DNA of 64,000 nucleotides from Colius striatus. Taxonomy: Eukaryota > Chordata > Aves > Coliiformes > Coliidae. Positions 61,342-61,727 of the stretch are shown here, in pieces; positions within the stretch are counted from its first letter, which is position 1; every line of letters begins with the position of its first letter. The DNA is taken from assembly GCF_028858725.1 (NCBI RefSeq), contig NC_084767.1, positions 6,251,501 through 6,315,500 on the forward strand. Direction: 5' to 3'. Position numbers and translations under genes: made by a program. The notes beneath the pieces are model-generated. The model was not told the origin of the DNA. It did no database searches and worked only from the letters and a program-made list of their open reading frames with translations.

Positions 61342-61494
61342 GTGAATATGTAATCATGACAGTGTACTTCCACTTGCAAAGGAAGATGGGCTACTTCATG
61401 ATACAGATATATACTCCTTGCATTATGACAGTCATTCTTTCTCAGGTGTCTTTCTGGATTAACAAGGAGTCTGTTCCAGCCAGAACAGTTTTTG
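61342..61494 (+). CDS. GABRA6: GABRA6 coding exon 7A: pre-M1, M1 and start of M2 (canonical copy)
   Basis: The exon is 153 nt, acceptor cttaacag, donor TTTG|gtatgc, phase 1 at both ends. It encodes residues 225-276: [15 protein letters not shown], then M1 ([20 protein letters not shown]), the M1-M2 linker and S-V-P-A-R-T-V-F-G. It matches mammalian alpha-6 nearly throughout. I247 corresponds to alpha-6 Ile228 (mature numbering), linked to furosemide sensitivity. Q259 corresponds to the M1 glutamine linked to neurosteroid action in alpha-1. F275 is M2 position 3'. A second, paralogous exon follows 80 nt downstream. Confidence 0.97.
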
Positions 61495-61574
61495 GTATGC
61501 CGCATTAAGGTCTTTGAACAGCTCAGCATCACATGTACCATTCATTCATTGCTTTCATTGCTTGTTTGTTTTAG
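61495..61574 (+). other. GABRA6: 80-nt intron between the duplicated exons 7A and 7B
   Basis: It starts gtatgc and ends cttgtttgttttag, with a good pyrimidine tract. At 80 nt it is near the lower size limit for vertebrate introns. Any branch point (for example the A at 61525, in gctcagc) would lie about 30-60 nt from the 5' splice site, a spacing known from other genes to block splicing between two alternative exons. Confidence 0.8.
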
Positions 61575-61727
61575 GCGAATATTCACTTCAGCTGCTCTAT
61601 TTCCATCTTCAAAGGAAAATAGGCTACTATCTCATTCAGACATACATTCCATGCATCATGACTGTAGTCCTGTCTCAAGTTGTGTTTTGGATCAACAAAG
61701 AATCTGTTCCAGCAAGAACCGTGGCTG
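61575..61727 (+). CDS. GABRA6: GABRA6 exon 7B: tandem duplicate of the M1-M2 exon, probably alternative
   Basis: The exon is 153 nt, exactly the length and phase (1-1) of exon 7A, with acceptor tgttttag and donor GCTG|gtattc. It encodes [16 protein letters not shown], then [20 protein letters not shown], then [16 protein letters not shown]. Thirty-nine of 52 residues match 7A. Of those 39, about 21 use a different synonymous codon, and there are no stops or indels, so selection appears to have kept the protein while silent sites drifted. Against 7A it changes the pre-M1 strand, M1 (furosemide-linked Ile to Thr; Q-V-S-F-W to Q-V-V-F-W) and M2 3' (Phe to Ala). Splicing only one of 7A or 7B gives a normal subunit; including both would keep the frame but duplicate M1. 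Expression is unproven. Confidence 0.85.

Follow-up and report, generated by a model that had tools for sequence, protein, structure and literature searches.

A second, ancient M1-M2 exon of GABRA6 in Colius striatus and other vertebrates, probably kept as an alternative to the usual exon

RESULTS

The window, the whole stretch of 64,000 nucleotides that was analysed, contains the initial portion of GABRA6, which runs on the + strand. Exons 1 to 6 lie within positions 57746 to 60898 (coding part of exon 1, 57746-57783; exon 2, 58027-58145; exon 3, 58490-58557; exon 4, 59774-59994; exon 5, 60094-60176; exon 6, 60755-60898) and are followed on the same strand by exon 7A, the usual M1-M2 exon (61342-61494, 153 nt), an intron of 80 nt (61495-61574) and exon 7B, a putative alternative M1-M2 exon (61575-61727, 153 nt). 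Exon 8 was located beyond the window, 4.2 kb past 7B (G000:C11:6317464-6317723), with the M4 exon and the last exon downstream of it (L008); the coding exons span ∼23 kb of this genome. By far the best match over the length of the 7A protein was the alpha6 chain of PDB 9oum, in which exon 7A is identical at 51 residues, and the peptides of both exons scored above the Pfam cut-off for PF02932, the membrane domain of ligand-gated channels, identifying the subunit as alpha6. Two other segments of the window, at 54361-54450 and about 62950-63290, are candidate ends of bird CR1 repeats, which they resemble.

Both M1-M2 exons have AG acceptors and GT donors, are in phase 1-1 and contain no stop in the spliced frame, and the donor of exon 6 fits either of them in frame. 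The coordinates and this splice check bore out the initial annotation, which had described two exons of 153 nt with these properties. The two are adjacent and homologous and have the same length and phase, as an exclusive pair should. The reading frame from exon 6 to exon 8 stays open with 7A, 7B, both or neither, and the donor sites are modest.

The nucleotide identity of 7A and 7B was 106/153 nt. The same residue was present at 38 of the 51 complete codons (39 of 52 when the shared junction Gly is counted), and 21 of these 38 common residues were specified by different codons, a recount that agreed with the 39 of 52 residues and about 21 codon differences of the initial annotation. Between the exons dN was 0.19 and dS was saturated. 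When 47 unconstrained changes were introduced in each of 20,000 simulations, none kept 38 residues (the maximum was 33) and a stop arose in 80%, indicating that the likeness of the two peptides is not due to chance.

Exchange of 7A for 7B alters five residues ahead of M1, seven within or beside M1 and M2 3'. Positions are numbered here as in rat alpha1, anchored at G258, which is 4' in PMC4410641. In an alignment of 27 7A rows and 27 7B rows, four positions had no residue in common to the two sets: 212 (Met in 7A, Gln in 7B), 222 (Met in 7A, Ile or Leu in 7B), 225 (Phe in 7A, Tyr in 7B apart from one Cys in Tyto) and 257, which is M2 3' and adjoins the desensitization gate (Phe in 7A, Ala in 7B). 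Position 231 was Thr in the amniote 7A rows and Ile in 27/27 7B rows, and position 243 was Ser in 7A and Val in 23/27 7B rows; both positions are presumably near residues at which anaesthetics and neurosteroids may act.

A search of the bird's own genome with the 7B peptide gave 26 matches, comprising 7B, 7A and 24 other M1-M2 exons. No second exon was seen within ∼1.5 kb on either flank of any of these 24, and the idea that other receptor genes of this genome have a 7B-like partner at that distance was rejected. The M2 3' residue was Leu in 17 of the 26 matched exons, Phe in six, Ile in two and Ala in 7B only. The letters recorded for M1 were [10 protein letters not shown] in 7B, [10 protein letters not shown] in 7A and GYYLIQMYIP in the glycine receptor exons (n = 4, L025-L028).

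The distribution of 7B was examined by a protein search with 7B as the scored region, which returned 824 proteins, the best 120 of which were analysed. The whole of 7B was present in 117 of these 120 (alone in 93, behind 7A in 21 and in 3 fused models); one of the remaining three had a piece of 7B and two had no visible 7B. Carriers among the best 120 of 824 were birds, turtles, lizards, frogs, one salamander and one lungfish and, among fishes, two sharks, ropefish, bichir, sturgeon, bowfin and teleosts. An exon-7 tree was built from 60 rows of chosen species, 46 of them different, with exons taken from 39 of 267 proteins, six paralog peptides and two peptides of the window. The 27 7B rows tested formed one clade (support 100/99), the inner order of which is unsure with 51 columns. 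Bird and shark had equal residues at 46/51 positions for 7A and likewise at 46/51 for 7B, and the number of positions at which 7A and 7B differ was 13 for the bird and 12 for Chiloscyllium, a shark. Judged from these sequence comparisons, the divergence of 7A and 7B predates that of sharks and bony vertebrates. The possibility of a novelty specific to birds was rejected, since sharks have 7B; the exon pair that had been proposed for the bird alpha-6 subunit does occur in birds, but its scope is far wider.

Over its 51 residues, 7B was identical in 51 of the 57 bird records among the best 120 of 824, from ostrich to songbirds. This constancy and the origin before the shark split, together with a dN of 0.19 at saturated dS and the lack of stops in 7B, make it scarcely credible that 7B is a decaying or fresh copy without use, for which the modest donor sites were the sole supporting observation. 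The initial annotation had proposed an old duplicate under protein-level selection and had suggested dN/dS as a check; that proposal was supported by the single clade extending from shark to bird and by the low dN.

The six deviating bird records came from Tyto (2), Strix (2) and Otus, the sixth being P0081. Four residues of 7B were changed in Tyto (P0011 and P0088), two in Otus (P0078) and one in Strix (P0076 and P0077). No change of 7B was present in either Athene record or in the kakapo, and 7A of Tyto was unchanged.

In several fish models (P0025, P0026 and P0178-P0182), the 7B part of alpha6 was fused to a beta subunit, as is expected if annotation joined neighbouring genes.

Teleosts, which underwent a genome duplication, had single-exon genes of both kinds. 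All 14 teleost records named alpha6a among the best 120 of 824 had 7B only and no 7A, and 77 teleost alpha6 records from another search (what remained of 84 records with a single 7A-type exon once six from frogs and one of alpha4 were set aside) had 7A only and no 7B. A tree of 31 of the 267 proteins was constructed without exon 7. Teleosts were one group in this tree (100/98), splitting in two after bowfin into a group with 7B, made up of eels and spiny-rayed fishes (support 89/91), and a group with 7A (94/84), both short of the support mark of the tool (95/80). Paramormyrops, an elephantfish inside the 7A group, keeps both exons, and Arapaima, with 7B, was unplaced. The simplest reading is that opposite exons were lost after the genome duplication.

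For mammals, 8,000 candidates were scored against an alpha6 backbone carrying 7B, a query with which any mammalian protein having 7B should rank near the top. No 7B was detected in the 38 listed mammal records, including those of platypus, echidna and marsupials, these records being cluster representatives whose hidden members may differ. 7A was present in 28 of the 38 and neither exon in 10. In these 10 records (P0140, P0150, P0152, P0153, P0155, P0158, P0159, P0164, P0166 and P0172), exon 6 was joined in frame to exon 8. Mammals may have kept a readiness to skip 7A after loss of 7B, or the records without exon 7 may be annotation artefacts.

Evidence of splicing came from bird record P0081. 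Its contig of 3,038 nt (source 'lgn') encodes 465 residues and contains exons 1 to 6, 7B, 8 and the last exons but no 7A; 458 of the 465 residues agreed with the zebra finch 7B model. As 3,038 nt compares with coding exons spanning ∼23 kb, this contig reads as spliced RNA, a retrocopy being the unlikely alternative. 7A without 7B occurred in gene models and in bird records, some of which share the source 'lgn' (P0157) and may represent transcripts. Gene prediction accounts for most of the remaining 7B records. The proteins of relatives and the spliced P0081 supported the earlier suggestion that 7B is kept as an alternative exon, and we infer that 7A and 7B normally exclude each other.

Among the best 120 records, 21 had 7A and then 7B, several of them labelled isoform X1, indicating either that exclusivity may be loose or that such models are artefacts. 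With the frame open, these records raised the alternative that the two exons are usually included together to give an alpha6 with two tandem M1 segments. An additional M1 would not fit the four-helix topology, and prediction programs readily join homologous exons in frame; furthermore, 7B stood alone in 93 of the 120 records, P0081 was spliced without 7A and teleosts retained single-exon genes of either kind. Habitual double inclusion is, consequently, quite improbable.

The intron between 7A and 7B contains TTCAT motif matches that are candidate branch points, 50, 54 and 63 nt past the donor of 7A. A steric limit of ∼50 nt between a branch point and the upstream donor is given in PMC7969005. 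Exclusion of this steric kind operates in OGDH and alpha-tropomyosin. With candidates at or just past this limit, steric exclusion between 7A and 7B is possible.

Flanking motifs were also counted. YCAY is the motif of NOVA, and UCAU-rich stretches lie on both sides of 7B. Five YCAY motifs were present in the 80-nt intron (61495-61574), a count reached in 48 of 3,196 segments of 80 nt from the sequence, and six were present in the next 80 nt past 7B (61728-61807), a count reached in 11 of 3,196. Dinucleotide shuffles reached the observed count in 55 of 500 cases for the intron and 51 of 500 for the first 150 nt downstream, and NOVA-like enrichment flanking 7B was discarded as weak against these shuffles. 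TAG motifs, which are photoreceptor splicing sites, were not enriched near 7B.

DISCUSSION

Exon 7B very probably arose long ago by tandem duplication of the M1-M2 exon of GABRA6 and has been retained as the alternative to 7A. Depending on which of the two is spliced to exon 6, alpha6 subunits of two kinds would result; these would be identical through exon 6 but have different residues in the strand ahead of M1, in the M1 helix and at the inner end of the pore helix. The GABA site would be nearly the same in both, as the exons through exon 6 are common to them. Inclusion of 7B may alter gating or desensitization via M1 and M2 3', where Phe is replaced by Ala beside the 4' Gly; the inner end of M2 and the M1-M2 linker act in desensitization (PMC4410641).

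The subunit with 7B could instead be inactive or dominant-negative and lower the function of alpha6 receptors. In PMC7973766, zebrafish alpha6a, presumed to be 7B only from the exon type in records of other teleosts, gave no measurable current with beta1 to beta3 with or without gamma2, and the Ala at M2 3' of 7B is unique among the 26 matched exons of the genome. However, alpha2b and alpha4 were silent too in that study, so the assay was unspecific. No alpha gave a current there with beta1 or beta2, alpha6b with beta3 was functional, and delta was not among the partners given to alpha6a. Moreover, a complete gene with 7B as its fixed form persists in teleosts, something that a purely inhibitory role would not necessarily call for. 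We consider an inactive subunit unlikely, though less so than habitual double inclusion, and favour a functional alternative exon.

Published data on relatives point to the retina as the site of use of 7B, with conflicting reports, and the cerebellum suits 7A. By in situ analysis at 96 h postfertilization, zebrafish gabra6a was mostly in the photoreceptor layer (PMC5922542), and the same paper cites robust expression of Xenopus alpha6 in photoreceptors and describes retinal alpha6 as unreported in mammals. As the named alpha6a records are fixed for 7B, the photoreceptor signal of gabra6a suggests 7B as the retinal form. Other data disagree: zebrafish alpha6a was in forebrain and midbrain and not in the eye at 5 days postfertilization (PMC7973766), and mouse alpha6 was detected on rod bipolar dendrites (PMC7735995), the mouse alpha6 of the PDB chain being without 7B. 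Among night-active owls, 7B has drifted in Tyto, Otus and Strix though not in Athene, and 7A of Tyto is unchanged; this pattern agrees with a function in cone vision, but the nocturnal kakapo with its unchanged 7B does not. Our proposal that 7B makes a retinal, photoreceptor alpha6 and 7A a cerebellar one is accordingly tentative, and we rate it at somewhat less than an even chance.

Several known systems resemble this exon pair. The flip/flop exons of AMPA receptors, one of which is used at a time, are likewise homologous neighbours within a single neurotransmitter receptor gene of vertebrates, with kinetic tuning as the expected effect, but the receptor family and the protein region are not the same; exclusivity is proven there and presumed here, and 7B is missing from the mammal records examined. 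Exons 3A/3B of glycine receptor alpha2 and the insect Rdl exons are also homologous exons in Cys-loop receptor genes; these are exclusive and change extracellular parts rather than M1 and the pore entrance. Exons 4a/4b of OGDH are a vertebrate-wide duplicated pair with a short intron between them, for which the branch points have been mapped, mostly well below ∼50 nt (PMC7969005), compared with motif matches at 50, 54 and 63 nt in GABRA6. The closest likeness is in public records, where predicted GABRA6 isoforms X1 to X4 involve the same two exons, already annotated in many species. Among the open-access papers listed by text searches, none described the exon pair, how old it is, the teleost split or the absence from mammals, and such a paper may exist. 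A second version of a gate-forming segment in a much-studied receptor seems to have been undescribed until now, an oversight perhaps owed to mammalian records without 7B.

The two exons, versions that have persisted since the time before sharks and bony vertebrates diverged, allow a direct test of the roles of M1 and M2 3' in an alpha subunit, and the teleost genes are a neat case of gene duplicates each retaining one alternative exon. In a wider conjecture, which we hold loosely and think slightly more apt to fail than to stand, 7B would define the photoreceptor GABA-A receptor of jawed vertebrates and the 7A form would serve cerebellar granule cells; in mammals 7B would have disappeared, perhaps in connection with a nocturnal phase of their history, and many teleosts would have assigned the two splice forms to separate genes, making alpha6a and alpha6b fixed isoforms. 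Exon 7B may identify the GABA receptor of non-mammalian photoreceptors.
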